A stretch of DNA of 5,614 nucleotides, taken from contig CADBNG010000190.1 of NCBI GenBank assembly GCA_902795985.1, forward strand, positions 1 to 5,614, written 5' to 3'. The DNA comes from an uncultured Lachnospiraceae bacterium (GTDB lineage Bacteria > Bacillota_A > Clostridia > Lachnospirales > Lachnospiraceae). Numbering within the stretch: the first letter of the stretch is position 1; every line of letters starts with the position of its first letter. Below are positions 1 through 5,614 of this stretch, in pieces. Below the pieces are notes generated by a model. It saw nothing but the letters and a program-made list of their open reading frames with translations, did not search any database and was not told the DNA's origin. A program made the translations under genes and the position numbers.

Positions 1-862
1 TCATCTTGGAATGCACAACCGTTGTACGGAAATGGCCGATCAGGCAGACCGCCTCCGCCGCGGCCGCATCGGTCAGCGCCCGGCACTCTTCCGGATGCGC
101 GGCTATATCGCTGGTCACAAGCCGGCGGTAGACCGCGTGGAAAACGCATCCGTCGGAAGGATCCACCAGATGCTTTCCGTCAAATTTCAGCCTGCGGATG
201 TCCACAAAGCGGGCGGGAATGCCCTTCTTTTCAAAGGCCGCAAGGAAACGGGGAATATCGCTCTTTGTCACCGCTTCTTCAAAATCGGTAATCAGAACAG
301 TGGGATTCTCCACGGCATTTTTATCGGAATGATAAGTCTTCATCATTTCGTCGACCCAGGTCTCGTACAGCTCAAACCGGGAAACTTTATGCCGCTCCGC
401 GAAGATTTTATAGCTTTCGGAACGCATCACCGCTTCACAGCCCAGGTCCGTCCGGGACATGGCTGCGGTACCGTCGGTATTGAATTCACAGAACTTAAAG
501 CTCCGGTCCGCTTCGTCCAGGAAGAAATCAAACCGGGCCATCGGAAGCAGCTCCTCATATCCGCAGGGAAGAAGGATCAGCCGCTCCACCTCCGGCGGAA
601 AGCAGAAAAGCTTCCGGTATTCCGGACATTCGATATAATGGGCGATCAGCTTGCACAGGATATCATGGGTCCTGGTACAGACCGTTTTGAAAAAGTCCAG
701 TTCTTCCGCCGTATAAAAAGCCGGAACAAAGGAGATCGGCGCCATAATGCCGTAGCAGTGGCCGTCGGAGTGATCGATATAGTCTTTTGCCCTGGCTTTC
801 CCTTCGGGATCCCCTCCAAGGGAACGGATAATCTGAAGGTATTCATCCCGTTCTTTTTTCAT
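1..862 (-). CDS. Circularly permuted ATP-grasp / glutathionylspermidine-synthase-like protein, N-terminal part (3' end beyond the window)
   Basis: The frame starts at ATG 862-860 and stays open for 287 codons to the window edge, so the C-terminal part is missing. The start is supported by AAGGAG six bases upstream, overlapping the TAA of the preceding prsW-like gene; the intergenic gap is 9 bases, indicating translational linkage. Visible landmarks are 'ARFDFFLD' (residues 109-116), then 'FKFCEFNTDGTAAM' (122-135), and further on 'FHAVYRRLVTSD' (241-252) and 'FRTTVVHSKM' (278-287). This order resembles the pre-ATP-grasp region of glutathionylspermidine-synthase-like and DUF404/407-type enzymes: an Arg-x-Asp strand, an 'E-[YF]-N-x-D' substrate loop, a 'R-R' strand, and an 'S-[NK]-K' turn entering the nucleotide site. 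Known members ligate a carboxylate to an amine with ATP. The Mg/ATP-binding residues expected downstream are outside the window, so activity and substrate cannot be judged. No signal peptide or membrane segment is seen, so it is probably cytosolic. The family call rests on remembered motifs and is moderate. Confidence 0.65.
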   Translation of the reverse strand, partial: MKKERDEYLQIIRSLGGDPEGKARAKDYIDHSDGHCYGIMAPISFVPAFYTAEELDFFKTVCTRTHDILCKLIAHYIECPEYRKLFCFPPEVERLILLPCGYEELLPMARFDFFLDEADRSFKFCEFNTDGTAAMSRTDLGCEAVMRSESYKIFAERHKVSRFELYETWVDEMMKTYHSDKNAVENPTVLITDFEEAVTKSDIPRFLAAFEKKGIPARFVDIRRLKFDGKHLVDPSDGCVFHAVYRRLVTSDIAAHPEECRALTDAAAAEAVCLIGHFRTTVVHSKM

Positions 863-871
863 TGTCTCTCC

Positions 872-1564
872 TTAACGGATCCGGTGGTCCGTCGCCGACG
901 CTTTCCGGATCATCACAAATACCGCGACATACATGGCAACGATAAACAGCAGGAACAGAAGCAGGAACATCGTGCTTCCGAAGCTCAGGCAGCTGTCGTA
1001 GAAGCCGTGAAGGACCGACGCCAGAACCACCGACAGCACCAGGACGCCCGTGGATTTGGAACGTTCTCCCCGGTTTGCCAGCTCCCGGGCCCTGGAATAC
1101 AGCAGTCCGGAAAAGACCGCAAAGCCGAAATGCCCCGGTATAAAAGTGATTGCCCGGACCAGGCCGGTTGCCAGGCCGCTTTCGAAAATATACATGATAT
1201 CTTCCAGTACGGAAAACCCGATGGCGACACAGATGGCATACAGCATGCCGTCGAACATGTAGTCAAAAGCCGGATGCTTCCAGCTGATCAGCTTCAGCGC
1301 GAGGAACTTGGACACTTCCTCCGCAACCGCCACGACGGCAAACATTTCCAGAAGAATATAGGAGGCCGGCTTAAGGCCCGATATGCTGTCCAGGATTGCC
1401 CCGCCGATCAGTTCCAGAACAATGGCGAGAAGGACGGAGACGGCTCCGCCGAGCACCAGCTTCCACAGGAGGCCCGACGGCTCCTTCTCGATCGTATCTT
1501 TTTTGTAGACATACAGAAACATCAGGATCGCCGGTCCCGCCGCGATCAGAAAAACAAGACCCAT
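872..1564 (-). CDS. PrsW-family intramembrane glutamic protease
   Basis: A 230-residue, strongly hydrophobic protein with roughly seven membrane segments (about 2-20, 33-60, 68-92, 105-125, 133-157, 172-190 and 197-219). It opens with 'P-A-I-L' followed by 'KKDTIEKEP' (21-29), a typical PrsW N-terminal signature. The putative active site is spread over the membrane helices: 'EEVSK' (82-86), 'FDG' (104-106), 'GFSVLED' (116-122), 'GHFGFAVFSG' (144-153) and 'HGFYD' (186-190). These match the EExxK, FxxG..E, H and HxxxD motifs of PrsW within the CAAX-protease/APH-1-like superfamily. B. subtilis PrsW makes the site-1 cut in anti-sigma factor RsiW. No sigma or anti-sigma gene is visible here, so the substrate is unknown. 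The start at 1564 has GGAGAAG just upstream and lies 14 bases after the stop of the acyl-CoA synthetase gene, so the two are co-transcribed. The family call is secure; assigning the symbol prsW would overstate functional equivalence. Confidence 0.9.
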   Translation of the reverse strand: MGLVFLIAAGPAILMFLYVYKKDTIEKEPSGLLWKLVLGGAVSVLLAIVLELIGGAILDSISGLKPASYILLEMFAVVAVAEEVSKFLALKLISWKHPAFDYMFDGMLYAICVAIGFSVLEDIMYIFESGLATGLVRAITFIPGHFGFAVFSGLLYSRARELANRGERSKSTGVLVLSVVLASVLHGFYDSCLSFGSTMFLLLFLLFIVAMYVAVFVMIRKASATDHRIR

Positions 1565-1578
1565 TCTCTTCTCCGGTT

Positions 1579-3849
1579 TTACAGCTTATTGCGCATGATT
1601 TTGCCGCTGATCGTCTTGGGAAGCTCGTCCCGGAACACCACGATCCTCGGATATTTATAGGGAGCGGTGTGCTCTTTCACGTAGTTCTGAACCTCTTTCT
1701 TGAGTTCCTCCGTACCTTCCTTGCCGTCCACCAGCACGATGCTGGCCTTGACAACCTGGCCCCGGACCTCATCCGGTTCGGCTGACACGCCGCATTCCAG
1801 AACGTACGGCAGCTCCATGATCACATTCTCGATTTCCGCAGGTCCGATCCGGTAGCCCGAGGATTTGATCACGTCGTCCGCCCGTCCGACATACCAATAA
1901 TAACCGTCTTCGTCTCTCCACGCAAGATCACCGGTGTGATAAAGGCCGTCATGCCAGCTTTCTTTTGTCTTTTCCTCGTCCTTGTAGTAACCCAGGAACA
2001 GTCCGCAGCGGCGGTTCTCTTCCGTGGCATGGATCACGACCTCACCGTTTTCGCCGTCCGGAACGGTGTTTCCGTTCTCGTCCACCAGGTCAATGCCGTA
2101 ATCCGGCACGGGTTTGCCCATGGAACCCGGTTTGATCAGATCGCCCAGCAGGTTGCCCAGGCCCAGGGTCATCTCCGTCTGGCCGAAGCCTTCGGCGATC
2201 TTCAGGCCGGTGATCCTCTCGAACTGGTAGAACACCTCCGGGTTCAGCGCCTCACCGGCTGTAGTGGCATGCTTGATGGACGAAAGGTCATACTGGGAGA
2301 TATCCTTTTTGATCAGCATCCGGTACATTGTCGGCGGCGCGCAGAAGGTGGTGATGTTGTATTTCGCGAACATCGGCAGGATCTTCTCCGCGTCGAAACG
2401 GGTAAAGTCATAGGTGAAGACGGCGCCTTCGCAGAGCCACTGTCCGTACAGTTTTCCCCAGAGGGCTTTTCCCCATCCCGTTTCGGAGATGGTGAAGTGC
2501 AGGCCTTCCCGGTCCACCCAGTGCCAGTATTTTGCCGTAACATAATGTCCCAGCGCGTATTTGTAGCTGTGAGCGGCGATTTTCGGATATCCGGTGGTCC
2601 CGGAAGTGAAGAACATCAGCATCGGATCATCTCCGCCCGGTGTCTCCGCGGTCCGCTCGTAGATATTGCTGTAGCGGGGGAATTCTTCATCATACGGATG
2701 CCAGCCTTCCCGTTTTCCGTTGACGATCACCTTGATCAGTTCTTTTCCGGTCACTTCTTCGGCCAGATCTGCCTGGTGAGCGGTATCGCCGTCCGCCGTG
2801 CAGAGGATGGCTTTTACTTCTCCTGCCTGGTAGCGGTAAGTGAAGTCATGCTCCAGCAGCTGGTTTGTAGCCGGGATCGCAACCGCGCCGATCTTATGCA
2901 GCGCAAGGATGCAGAACCAGAACTGATAATGCCGTTTCAGGACGATCATGACCTTATCGCCTTTTCGGATGCCCAGATCCGTCAGGTAATTCGCCGTCCG
3001 CGCGGAAGCATCCATCATATCCCGGAAGGTAAACCGGCGCTCGGTCATATCATCGGAAATATGCAGCATGGCCAACTTGTCCGGATAGGCTTTGGCGATC
3101 TCGTCCACGATATCGAAAGCAAAATTGAAGTGCTCGGTATTGGTAAAATGAATATGCTGAAGCTCCCCGCGCTCATTTTCTTCCGTCTGAACGAACTTGT
3201 CGCTGATGAGCGGGTAAGACTTGATATGTCCGGCCTGGGCTTCGGCTCCCGTATGCTGTTCCTGTACCGAACTGGCCATGATCATGGAAAGGAACACGCA
3301 GTCCCTGCCATTGATCGCGATCATGCCGTGGGGGGTGGAACTCTTGTAGAAAATGCTGTCGCCTTCCTCCAGTACTTCCTCATGCTCCCCGACACGAACC
3401 CGCATCGAACCGCTGATGACCAGGTCAAATTCCTGTCCTGCATGGGTTGTCGTATGGATCGGCTGATCCTGCAGTTTTTCATCATACTGATAAGTAACCC
3501 AGTACGGTGTCGCAAGACGGTTGCGGAACATGGCGGCCATGTTCTGGATGGTGATGCCTTCTTCCTTTGCCGTCACCGGCCCTCTTCCCTTCCGGGTAAC
3601 CGTGTAACCGGAAAGCTTTGCCGTATGGCCTTCCAGAAGGGCATTCAGGTCCACGCCGAAAACGATGCTGCACTTATGCAGAAACGTAAACGGCAGATCC
3701 GTCTTTCCTTTCTCATACTCCAGGTACTGCTCTTCACTGACCTCCGTCATTTCCGCCATACGGGCGGTGCTGTAACCGATGATCTCTCTCATGTTGCGGA
3801 TACGTTCCGCGATTTCCAAGAGTTTTCCGGCAGTGTTGGTGGTTTCCAT
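1579..3849 (-). CDS. XRE-HTH / cupin / medium-chain-type acyl-CoA synthetase fusion protein
   Basis: A 756-residue, three-module protein. Residues about 12-73 form an XRE-like helix-turn-helix ('YSTARMAEMTEVS', 'YLEYEKGKTDLP'). Residues about 112-195 are a cupin: H132, H136, E140 and G147 fit motif 1, and 'EEGDSIFYKSSTPHG' (161-175), with H174, fits motif 2, so metal or ligand binding is plausible. Residues about 238-756 are a complete AMP-forming acyl-CoA synthetase of the ANL superfamily: P-loop 'FFTSGTTGYPK' (413-423), 'SETGWGKALWGKLYGQW' (455-471), 'TTFCAPPTMYR' (500-510), 'EGFGQTE' (553-559), 'YHTGD' (637-641), hinge region 'GRADDVIKSSGYRIGPAEIE' (655-674) and 'PKTISGKIMRNKL' (744-756) with catalytic K750. 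The style is that of ACSM/MACS enzymes, which make acyl-CoA, AMP and PPi from short, medium or branched carboxylates. All catalytic motifs are present. The start at 3849 follows a perfect AGGAGG; a longer in-frame ATG at 3924 lies inside the leader terminator and is rejected. It is the first gene of the operon, behind an isoleucine T-box. The exact substrate is unknown. Confidence 0.95.
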   Translation of the reverse strand: METTNTAGKLLEIAERIRNMREIIGYSTARMAEMTEVSEEQYLEYEKGKTDLPFTFLHKCSIVFGVDLNALLEGHTAKLSGYTVTRKGRGPVTAKEEGITIQNMAAMFRNRLATPYWVTYQYDEKLQDQPIHTTTHAGQEFDLVISGSMRVRVGEHEEVLEEGDSIFYKSSTPHGMIAINGRDCVFLSMIMASSVQEQHTGAEAQAGHIKSYPLISDKFVQTEENERGELQHIHFTNTEHFNFAFDIVDEIAKAYPDKLAMLHISDDMTERRFTFRDMMDASARTANYLTDLGIRKGDKVMIVLKRHYQFWFCILALHKIGAVAIPATNQLLEHDFTYRYQAGEVKAILCTADGDTAHQADLAEEVTGKELIKVIVNGKREGWHPYDEEFPRYSNIYERTAETPGGDDPMLMFFTSGTTGYPKIAAHSYKYALGHYVTAKYWHWVDREGLHFTISETGWGKALWGKLYGQWLCEGAVFTYDFTRFDAEKILPMFAKYNITTFCAPPTMYRMLIKKDISQYDLSSIKHATTAGEALNPEVFYQFERITGLKIAEGFGQTEMTLGLGNLLGDLIKPGSMGKPVPDYGIDLVDENGNTVPDGENGEVVIHATEENRRCGLFLGYYKDEEKTKESWHDGLYHTGDLAWRDEDGYYWYVGRADDVIKSSGYRIGPAEIENVIMELPYVLECGVSAEPDEVRGQVVKASIVLVDGKEGTEELKKEVQNYVKEHTAPYKYPRIVVFRDELPKTISGKIMRNKL

Positions 3850-3856
3850 GATTTTT

Positions 3857-3862
3857 CCTCCT
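3857..3862 (-). promoter_or_regulatory. Ribosome binding site of the acyl-CoA synthetase fusion gene
   Basis: AGGAGG on the minus strand, seven bases before ATG 3849-3847. It is a full Shine-Dalgarno match and decides the start codon against the ATG at 3924, which would place 25 unlikely residues through the terminator-distal leader. It lies downstream of the T-box terminator, so it is only transcribed when the antiterminator wins. Confidence 0.9.
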
Positions 3863-3908
3863 GTTTTCCTGTTTCTGTCCGGTGAGGAAGCTGAGTCTGT
3901 ACATATAG

Positions 3909-3940
3909 AAAAAGCCCGTCTCAACTACATTGAGACGAGC
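3909..3940 (-). terminator. T-box-controlled intrinsic terminator
   Basis: On the minus strand, GCTCGTCTCAA (3940-3930) pairs with TTGAGACGGGC (3924-3914), giving 11 pairs including one G-U, around a five-base loop (TGTAG), followed by TTTTT (3913-3909). Its 5' arm is also the 3' arm of the antiterminator, so the two structures cannot coexist. This is the regulatory decision point of the leader. Confidence 0.95.
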
Positions 3941-4174
3941 CATAATAAACCCGCGGTACCACTCAATTTGCGGCCTGCGCCGCCACTCATCGAACTCCAT
4001 CAAGTCCTGTCCATTAACGCAGGCTCACGGGAAGCATCTACTTGCTTTCGCTTTCTTGCTTCCGGCTCAGAAGTGATGGGCACTTGAAGTTCCTGCTTCC
4101 GGTTCACACCAACCACCGTATCTCTCAAACGCATTTCCTTCGGCCGTCTTCGTCAACGCCTTTCTTTTTCAATT
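3909..4174 (-). promoter_or_regulatory. T-box riboswitch leader, predicted isoleucine-specific (AUC specifier, tRNA-Ile)
   Basis: This leader RNA senses uncharged tRNA. In Stem I, CGUUUGAG (4131-4124) pairs fully with UUCAAGUG (4088-4081). Above it sits the conserved distal hairpin GGUUGGUGUGAACC (4114-4101). Below it, GAAG (4141-4138) pairs with CUUC (4073-4070), leaving a specifier loop whose 3' side is CCCAUCA (4080-4074). The triplet immediately before the conserved A (A4074) is AUC (4077-4075), an Ile codon. Stem II is GGAAGC (4063-4058) with GCUUCC (4035-4030) and carries the S-turn-like AGUAGA (4042-4037). A further helix, GCCUGCG (4024-4018) with CGCAGGC (3979-3973), precedes the antiterminator. 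In the antiterminator, AUUGAG (3967-3962) pairs with CUCAAU (3934-3929) and GCGGG (3954-3950) with CUCGU (3939-3935), bulging UGGUACC (3961-3955). The bulge UGGU expects a tRNA 3' end ACCA, matching the A discriminator of tRNA-Ile. Class is certain; amino-acid specificity is a reading of the loop by eye. Confidence 0.95.
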
Positions 4175-4180
4175 ACGGCA

Positions 4181-4209
4181 ATGTTACCACTTTCCCCCGG
4201 GACTGTCAA
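4181..4209 (-). promoter_or_regulatory. Sigma-A-type promoter of the T-box operon
   Basis: On the minus strand the -35 box TTGACA (4209-4204) is a perfect consensus. A 17-base spacer separates it from TAACAT (4186-4181), a 4/6 match to the -10 consensus, which is preceded by TG one base upstream (TGG-TAACAT), making an extended -10. The predicted transcript starts near A4174, just before the first T-box helices, which independently supports the position. Copies of TCCCGG flank the -35 box (see findings). Confidence 0.85.
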
Positions 4210-4218
4210 CCGGGATTT

Positions 4219-4252
4219 TCAAAGGAAAGGGGACCGGTTAAAACCAGTCCCC
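4219..4252 (-). terminator. Intrinsic terminator after the lipase-like gene
   Basis: GGGGACTGGT (4252-4243) pairs with ACCGGTCCCC (4238-4229) across a four-base loop, one G-U pair included, followed by an interrupted T-run TTTCCTTT (4228-4221). It begins 21 bases after the lipase stop and ends about 10 bases before the -35 box of the next promoter, so it insulates the two units. The broken T-tract means some read-through is possible. Confidence 0.8.
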
Positions 4253-4273
4253 GAACAAAAAGCCGCTCTCCGT

Positions 4274-5614
4274 TCACTCCTGTCCGGGGATGCCTTCCGT
4301 ATAATAACTGTCAAGAGACTCAACCCAGGCCAGGTTTATTTCGGGATAATGGGCCTGTATGATCTGGTCCATGTTCAATACAAGGGTCAGGATATGATAG
4401 CCCTGATAACGGGTGATGTCATCCTCTATCAGCTGATCCATGAAAAGGAGCAGAGGACCGACCGCATTGGAAAGGTTCTCATATTCCTGTTCGGTCAGAC
4501 CGATTTTTTTCTTTCGCATCTGCTCGATAAAACTGGAAGCCAGCACCTCGCCGGATGCCTGCAGCGCGGCGTGATAGGTCTCATCATTACGCAGTTCGGA
4601 AGGAAGGGTATTATTTAAGGAAATCGTGACGGCAATCGCGGAAATGGCGACGTAGAACTGCCAGTCCTTTACCATATCCCCGCAGGCTTCGATCATCTCA
4701 TCGGCCTGGGCGTATGTGCTGCCAAGGATAATCCGGGCAACGGTGGAAAAGGCTTCCTGGTAATGCTCCGCGTAGCTGGCCCTGTCCGAATCCGGCAGAT
4801 TGCTGTTGACCCATTCCGTCAGTTCCCCGACAAATTCCCCCTGGCTGATCTTCTCCGGCTCTTTGAACTGCACCTGTTCGAACGCGCTGGCCGGATCCGT
4901 GTACCGATAGGCGGTAAAATCATCCAGAATATACTCGATCGACGGATCAATCTCCGCAAGTCTTTCCAGCATCACCGTTTTGCGCTCTTCATAGCCGTCA
5001 TCGCCGGGCACCGGCAGGAGCAGATCATCCCGGGTATAGTTTTTCAGACGGTCCGGCTGCTCATAGCCGGCGCGGTCGAACCCCCAGATGGACAACGGAA
5101 TCATGGGAACAACGTCCGCGGGGGAGACGGTATTGTGAATATAGGGTTCATGGCCGGTTTCGTCATGAAGGACTCCCTGGGGCGCTTCAAACGTATAGCA
5201 GTAAATATCCTTAAGGGTCGTTCCGTACAGTTCCGGATTCTCCCCGATCTCCGCAGCGGCCATATTGGAAAGGGCTCCGGCCCTGGAATAACCGGCAAGC
5301 CAGATTTTCACATGATCTTTCAGGCCGTATTTCTTCTCATATTCCCGGATGAATTCCAGAACCTGCTCTTTTGCCGCGGAAAAGCCCTTGGATTCTCCTT
5401 CGGTTCCGACACGGACGTTATTGGCCCACTCCGCCTCATAGGAGGCTCCACGGATTCCGACAGCTAAAATGGTATAGAAATGCCGGTTTGAAAAGATCAT
5501 CCGGCTGCCGATGGCCACACCGACCGAATCCTCCGTCGGCTTCACGTCATAGGCTTCATTATGAACCAGCCGGGAAAAACCGATCTCTTCCATCAGCGCT
5601 TCATAATTCTCGCA
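4274..5614 (-). CDS. Lipase-like alpha/beta-hydrolase, 5' end beyond the window
   Basis: 446 residues are visible and the frame is open to the window edge. A Met at 5593 lies seven codons in but is internal: no ribosome binding site precedes it and conserved-looking sequence continues upstream. From the first visible residue, 'SVGVAIGSRMI' and 'TILAVGIRGA' (30-56) form core beta strands, and 'WLAGYSRAGALSN' (105-117) is the nucleophile elbow with candidate catalytic S110. 'YCYTFEAPQGV' (138-148) and 'HNTVSPADVVPMIP' (160-173) give candidate Asp D167. Near the C-terminus, 'AHYPEINLAWVESLD' (421-435) offers candidate His H422. This order fits class-3-type lipase-like proteins common in clostridia. 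About 250 mostly helical residues lie between the Asp and His motifs and could form a lid. The elbow reads G-Y-S-R-A, with Ala in the last position of GxSxG. Whether a signal peptide exists cannot be seen. It has its own terminator and is not part of the T-box operon. Substrate unknown. Confidence 0.8.
   Translation of the reverse strand, partial: CENYEALMEEIGFSRLVHNEAYDVKPTEDSVGVAIGSRMIFSNRHFYTILAVGIRGASYEAEWANNVRVGTEGESKGFSAAKEQVLEFIREYEKKYGLKDHVKIWLAGYSRAGALSNMAAAEIGENPELYGTTLKDIYCYTFEAPQGVLHDETGHEPYIHNTVSPADVVPMIPLSIWGFDRAGYEQPDRLKNYTRDDLLLPVPGDDGYEERKTVMLERLAEIDPSIEYILDDFTAYRYTDPASAFEQVQFKEPEKISQGEFVGELTEWVNSNLPDSDRASYAEHYQEAFSTVARIILGSTYAQADEMIEACGDMVKDWQFYVAISAIAVTISLNNTLPSELRNDETYHAALQASGEVLASSFIEQMRKKKIGLTEQEYENLSNAVGPLLLFMDQLIEDDITRYQGYHILTLVLNMDQIIQAHYPEINLAWVESLDSYYTEGIPGQE

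Follow-up and report, generated by a model that had tools for sequence, protein, structure and literature searches.

The stretch of DNA analysed here, called the window throughout (5,614 nucleotides, nt; positions 1 to 5,614 of contig CADBNG010000190.1 in assembly GCA_902795985.1), comes from an uncultured Lachnospiraceae bacterium and carries a complete T-box leader (3928..4165) in front of the gene of an acyl-CoA synthetase, ACS1 (1579..3849), both on the minus strand, as are all other features of the window given below. ACS1 is a protein of 756 residues that combines an XRE-type helix-turn-helix domain and a cupin domain with a synthetase part formed by the AMP-binding and AMP-binding_C domains (Pfam PF12844, PF07883, PF00501 and PF13193). 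The gene is preceded by an AGGAGG-type ribosome site, and no other gene is assigned between the T-box and ACS1 (3849-1579), in agreement with the initial annotation, which had seen no amino-acid gene between the two. Also the extent given there, 1579-4209, is right. It is very likely that the leader is an isoleucine T-box in front of a 2-methylbutyryl-CoA synthetase that feeds a reductive carboxylation to isoleucine, and that in relatives a paralogue, ACS2, likewise serves the conversion of isobutyrate to valine.

The T-box RNA itself is ordinary. The window matches all positions 1-219 of the 219 positions of the Rfam covariance model RF00230 at 4165-3928 (E 1.5e-18), with 87 bits, which is below the curated gathering score of 93; this score is a curator's cut-off and no structural feature, and of the 12 best-matching loci in a family sample described below, 4 have an ACS1 T-box that reaches it. 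Stem I is also matched by an own covariance model, R1 (4154-4048, 84.1 bits), with the window being among the 48 sequences from which R1 was built. The specifier codon AUC, for isoleucine, lies at 4075..4077, within an internal loop that a conserved helix bounds, and the T-box core UGGUACC, recognised in the sequence and in the Rfam alignment, at 3955..3961, with the UGGU bulge at 3961-3958. In T-boxes, the UGGU of the core is known to pair with the 3' end of the uncharged tRNA. Scan and fold place an intrinsic terminator, a 13-pair stem followed by a U-run, at 3913..3941, and in the Rfam alignment the 3' arm of the antiterminator is the 5' arm of this terminator; the two structures are mutually exclusive. 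The complete T-box before an XRE-cupin-synthetase gene that had been described in the initial annotation is thus confirmed. A consensus scan of 3840-4300 found a promoter-like site upstream of the leader (TTGACA - 17 nt - TAACAT at 4181..4209, with a TG before the -10 element), which agrees with the consensus at 10 of 12 positions (one such site found, 0.2 expected in shuffles) and is by itself no evidence of function. The same kind of scan found a terminator-like site at 4229..4252, which follows the lipase-like gene upstream and would separate the T-box unit from it. Together, the two sites make it probable that an independent unit begins with the leader.

The specifier can be judged by comparison with homologous loci. 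An alignment of eight sequences, that of the window and seven homologues, was used to scan a genome collection that consists mostly of metagenome-assembled genomes (MAGs), and the best 80 of more than 80 loci, 64-73% identical, were analysed; in 77 of these 80, a T-box core lies at most 700 nt upstream of ACS1. The Stem I alignment comprises 48 sequences, namely those of 19 ACS1 loci, 14 ACS2 genes, 14 genes of LeuA-like proteins, and the window. The four-pair helix adjoining the specifier is paired in 99.5% of the cells of the 47 aligned T-boxes from these three gene classes (the row of the window is cut before the helix and lacks its 5' strand there), and at two pairs the pairing is kept through changes on both sides. 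The whole Stem I structure is paired to 96.6%, and to at most 51.5% after a shift of the strands against each other by 1-3 columns. The covariation of the adjoining helix therefore fixes the codon register, and the covariation upholds AUC as the codon of the window. With a covariance model built from this alignment, the window and the 80 loci yielded 149 Stem I elements, and the specifier column was read for each element, which was then assigned to the next downstream homologue. Some of these loci had gone into the model, so that its scores are not independent evidence, unlike the specifier content, which is.

This content follows the genes: AUC is found in 77 of 77 readable ACS1 T-boxes (76 of the 80 loci and the window), valine codons in all 40 ACS2 T-boxes (33 GUA, 7 GUC), and leucine codons in all 30 T-boxes of LeuA-like genes (15 CUG, 14 CUC, 1 CUU); two further Stem I elements read CUC and have no gene assigned. 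In the later family sample, the 12 best-matching loci contained 18 T-boxes, with AUC before ACS1 in 12 of 12, valine codons before five ACS2 genes and a leucine codon before one LeuA-like gene (four of the 12 genomes, G051, G053, G011 and G020, belong to the first 80 as well). The isoleucine specifier of the initial annotation has thereby held up, and the test against random specifiers favoured the isoleucine reading. In one locus (L014, about 7606-7920), the ACS1 T-box has a specifier-to-core spacing of 234 nt, compared with the usual 110-130 or so, and an insertion-like stretch in between.

The nearest solved structure to the synthetase half of ACS1 is PDB 3etc (596 bits, the next chain having 334 bits), the alignment with which spans residues 231-753 and retains the GWGK and APYKYPR stretches. 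The paralogue ACS2 was found in 59 of the 80 loci, and in front of 40 of these ACS2 genes an own valine T-box could be read. In a quick tree, ACS1 (81 sequences) and ACS2 (54 sequences, without five short fragments in L010, L025, L037, L057 and L075 that were left out) are separated by a single branch that has full SH-aLRT support. What can be regarded as a natural specifier switch is seen in L077: the two T-boxes there (70-330 and 2748-3010) agree in 249 of 314 columns, the valine T-box before ACS2 being a copy of the isoleucine T-box before ACS1 with AUC changed to GUC. Of the 747 compared positions, 28 separate ACS1 from ACS2, and 24 of these lie in the XRE-cupin part, which in ACS1 is probably a second, metabolite-sensing input; the remaining four, 460, 463, 563 and 747, belong to the synthetase part. 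Position 460 is the sole residue of that part which separates the two without exception, being Gly in 81 of 81 ACS1 (codon at 2470..2472 in the window) and Ala in 54 of 54 ACS2 sequences. It aligns with a Gly of 3etc, which is the enzyme MacsMa of Methanosarcina acetivorans, and with the Val of GWVTG in an acetyl-CoA synthetase, a residue that we take to line the acetate pocket in the Salmonella enzyme. Position 563 of ACS2 is mostly Ile (45/54), and together with Ala460 this would make for a smaller pocket, fitting isobutyrate. The preferred acyl substrate of MacsMa is 2-methylbutyrate, as stated in the available part of PMC10455477, and from the homology and residue 460 it is likely that ACS1 acts on the same acid. 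The two enzymes are alike in the synthetase half, to which ACS1 adds the XRE-cupin half and the T-box control.

In relatives, also the neighbouring genes fit such a substrate. The order in L035 is isoleucine T-box, ACS1, valine T-box, ACS2, a small P-loop ATPase, the alpha, beta and gamma subunits of a 2-ketoisovalerate-type ferredoxin oxidoreductase (VOR) and a branched-chain aminotransferase (BCAT), with NCBIfam scores of 541 for the VOR alpha subunit (VorB cut-off 399) and 479 for the BCAT (cut-off 307). The VOR alpha subunit was found in 62 of the 80 loci (on the other strand in L081) and the BCAT in 43; of the loci in which VOR alpha, BCAT or ACS2 was not found, many end early. The P-loop protein between the synthetase and oxidoreductase genes (221 residues, L035:12928-13590) scores 25.2 bits with CbiA, just below the cut-off of 25.4, and has a homologue in 64 of the 80 loci.

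Taken together, a shortage of isoleucine would leave tRNA-Ile with the anticodon GAU uncharged, which would pair with the AUC specifier and the UGGU bulge, and the tRNA-bound leader would form the antiterminator and allow the transcription of ACS1. The enzyme would then turn 2-methylbutyrate, taken from the gut, into 2-methylbutyryl-CoA, which the VOR, working in the carboxylating direction, would convert to 2-keto-3-methylvalerate, and the BCAT would finally produce isoleucine. In relatives, ACS2, often under a valine T-box, would initiate the same route from isobutyrate to valine. For the organism of the window, we infer that the remaining pathway is present in its own genome. A tie to isoleucine supply had been proposed in the initial annotation, and it is supported by the VOR and BCAT neighbours in relatives and by the biosynthesis genes that were not found, as set out in the following; its contrast between this target and biosynthetic genes probably fails, however, as the synthetase is best understood to open an alternative biosynthetic route to isoleucine.

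The standard pathway was searched for in the host genomes. Ketol-acid reductoisomerase (KARI, IlvC) was found in 11 of the 80 genomes (8/50 and 3/30) and in 14 of 14 controls, and it was not found in the other 69 host genomes, an absence that is soft because the genomes are mostly MAGs, and divergent enzymes can escape score cut-offs. Among the 50 genomes searched for it, an IlvD-type dehydratase with at least 450 bits occurs in the same 8 genomes that have KARI, and since these score so high, PF00920 matches of 360-366 bits in 4 genomes were judged not to be IlvD. ACS2 is missing from 9 of the 11 KARI-positive genomes as compared with 5 of the 69 KARI-negative ones (Fisher 4e-7; tallied by hand, with ACS2 taken as present where a fragment of it lies at a contig end). 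In the family sample, which comprises 200 genomes of one family with copy numbers classed by hand and at most five candidates scored per genome, KARI was found in 1 of 32 genomes with two XRE-cupin-synthetases, in 16 of 33 with one and in 83 of 135 with none. The difference between two and none is pronounced (p 2.5e-10), and between one and none there is no link to KARI loss (p 0.24), from which it follows that a missing KARI is associated with the second paralogue and not with a single copy; all these p-values overstate, as related genomes are not independent. Threonine dehydratase (TIGR01127) exceeded its cut-off in 4 of the 11 KARI-positive and in none of 7 tested KARI-negative genomes (18 host genomes), and in 5 of 14 controls. 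The seven KARI-positive genomes without such a match all keep ACS1 and lack ACS2. Citramalate synthase was above its cut-off in none of 50 genomes, which included five of those seven, without G061 and G079, and in 5 of 14 controls. The seven genomes could thus make valine de novo, yet seem to be without the usual 2-ketobutyrate sources for isoleucine.

Several observations weigh against this interpretation. Besides the sub-gathering Rfam score of the leader, the softness of the absences and the missing link between a single synthetase copy and KARI loss, the best NCBIfam match of ACS1, MbcS (NF047394), reaches 438.6 bits where the cut-off is 850, so that ACS1 is not filed as MbcS. No readable Stem I was found before ACS1 in four of the 80 loci: L055 starts inside the T-box, and the upstream sequence amounts to 273 nt in L063 and 33 nt in L071, but L038 has 700 nt upstream of ACS1 and there the gene follows a LeuA-like/synthetase pair by about 60 nt. 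Of the 59 loci that have ACS2, 19 gave no readable valine T-box in front of it, and in part of them (for example L006, L007, L022) ACS2 starts about 50-165 nt behind ACS1 and would therefore be read from the isoleucine T-box, which means that not every locus shows the matching. KARI and threonine dehydratase occur together with both synthetases in two genomes (G032, G076) and together with ACS1 in two others (G045, G048), hence one genome can have both the route and de novo synthesis. Finally, in the window, VOR and BCAT are not beside ACS1, and the place is taken by a PrsW-family intramembrane protease (872..1564, PF13367), the start of which lies 14 nt after the ACS1 stop; ACS1 is likewise apart from VOR in L046 and L048, with about 8 kb of downstream sequence.

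Behind the PrsW gene, 9 nt after its stop, starts a further gene (2..862) that runs off the window and gave no match in Pfam or NCBIfam. The gaps of 14 and 9 nt suggest a possible co-transcription of ACS1 with both genes, which may thus be under the isoleucine T-box as well, and it could then be argued that the T-box serves these two genes and ACS1 is a passenger. However, tblastn at 1e-5 gave no match to PrsW in any of the 80 + 12 homologous loci, where gene 2..862 was not found either, and T-box and ACS1 occur together in 76 of the 80, so that such a passenger role has hardly any likelihood. Just as hard to believe is a catabolic locus, in which isoleucine would be broken down through VOR with the synthetase working in that pathway. 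VOR enzymes are reversible and often catabolic, as is generally known, but a T-box responds to a shortage of its amino acid by switching genes on, which is the opposite of a catabolic need, AMP-forming synthetases are generally known to activate acids, and just 11 of the 80 genomes had a KARI match.

Two other explanations keep the activation of an acid by ACS1. In one of them the acid is propionate, and propionyl-CoA would be carboxylated to 2-ketobutyrate, from which the ordinary IlvBCDE route leads to isoleucine. This would equally connect a synthetase of acyl-CoA and an oxidoreductase with isoleucine supply, and it would be feasible in the seven KARI-positive genomes without a threonine dehydratase match over the cut-off, but in the 69 of 80 genomes without a KARI match the route could not be finished, and the nearest solved enzyme prefers 2-methylbutyrate, which makes propionate a very improbable substrate. 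In the other one, ACS1 would supply branched acyl-CoA primers for membrane fatty acids, and the isoleucine T-box would signal the loss of isoleucine-derived primers. The model for this is MbcS of Staphylococcus aureus, the best NCBIfam match, which according to the available part of PMC10026030 supplies fatty acid synthesis by activating 2-methylbutyrate and isobutyrate. The MbcS cut-off is not reached, though, and where S. aureus has one enzyme for both acids, many relatives of the window have two, in 40 loci with separate isoleucine and valine switches. Also the VOR and BCAT neighbours in relatives argue against lipid primers, and the presence of the valine paralogue tracks the lack of KARI, which a lipid role does not predict. 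A lipid role is therefore improbable, if somewhat less so than the other alternatives, and lipid and isoleucine roles could share one acyl-CoA pool. The activation of 2-methylbutyrate for isoleucine synthesis is by far the most probable function of ACS1.

The isoleucine route from 2-methylbutyrate is not a new idea, as it is reportedly named in the title of a paper by Robinson and Allison from 1969, and branched volatile fatty acids have reportedly been known for a long time as growth factors of rumen bacteria, an example being a 1962 title on Ruminococci. The synthesis of isoleucine from 2-methylbutyrate by rumen anaerobes and by Methanobrevibacter, as covered in the available part of PMC2812497, has the same proposed end product and carboxylation step; what differs is that specific genes and a regulation are proposed here, in Bacillota. 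In a 2020 paper on Prevotella bryantii, the reverse conversion of branched short-chain acids into amino acids is still called not proven (PMC7709123, available part). The loci described here thus offer candidate genes for a route known by title from 1969.

With known isoleucine T-boxes (RF00230), the leader of the window has in common Stem I, the AUC specifier, the UGGN bulge and the antiterminator/terminator switch, and AUC is the specifier in a fraction of 0.99 of the isoleucine T-boxes in TBDB (PMC7778990, available part). It differs from that class in its target, an acyl-CoA synthetase. As far as the available part of a 2008 survey goes, T-box targets are mostly tRNA ligases, transport (12%) and biosynthesis (18%), with 8% unknown or without an apparent amino-acid link (PMC2494555), and tRNA ligases, biosynthesis and transport are the main targets also in the available part of PMC3766115. 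The term 'acyl-CoA' is absent from the main texts of PMC2494555, PMC3766115, PMC7778990 and PMC7583486, and 'AMP-binding' from those of PMC2494555 and PMC7778990. No description of a T-box on such a synthetase was found among the titles and abstract openings listed in searches of the open-licence literature, and T-box databases may list such leaders uncommented. What is new is the amino-acid-matched control of acid-activating enzymes by isoleucine and valine, perhaps also leucine, T-boxes, by which fatty-acid activation would join the known T-box-controlled functions. The specifier codons give a testable substrate assignment for each synthetase, and would allow genome-based predictions of auxotrophy, acid supplementation in feed and cross-feeding.

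A leucine counterpart may exist as well. The LeuA-like proteins (L067:3667-5094 and relatives), mostly encoded behind leucine T-boxes, lack RDGxQ, which is presumably the LeuA motif, in the first 60 residues in 34 of 34 cases, and the protein of L067 retains the LeuA dimerisation domain, so that the LeuA-like protein may sense leucine and not be an enzyme. Directly after its gene and under the leucine T-box, L067 encodes a fusion of 826 residues (5094-7571) of a xylose-isomerase-like TIM barrel with an acyl-CoA synthetase, which is a candidate isovalerate activator. Homologues of both proteins were found in 30 of the 80 loci. LeuB (TIGR00169) was above its cut-off in 3 of 50 genomes, with 4 more at 257-272 bits, and in 9 of 14 controls, by which a loss of LeuB in the host genomes is only suggested. 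It is conceivable, and put forward here tentatively, that gut and rumen Bacillota have a three-armed T-box regulon, in which isoleucine, valine and leucine T-boxes would control dedicated synthetases for 2-methylbutyrate, isobutyrate and isovalerate that share one carboxylating oxidoreductase and one aminotransferase, with XRE-cupin halves each sensing a different ligand and the RDGxQ-less LeuA as the leucine sensor.

Outside of these loci, no relative of the ACS1 protein was found among the viral contigs scanned. Weaker homologues occur in plasmid records, 8 of which have one place that covers 80% of the query or more. Two neighbouring genes encode the cupin and the AMP-binding homologue separately in Parabacteroides distasonis (L001:4992-7214), next to genes of proline biosynthesis.

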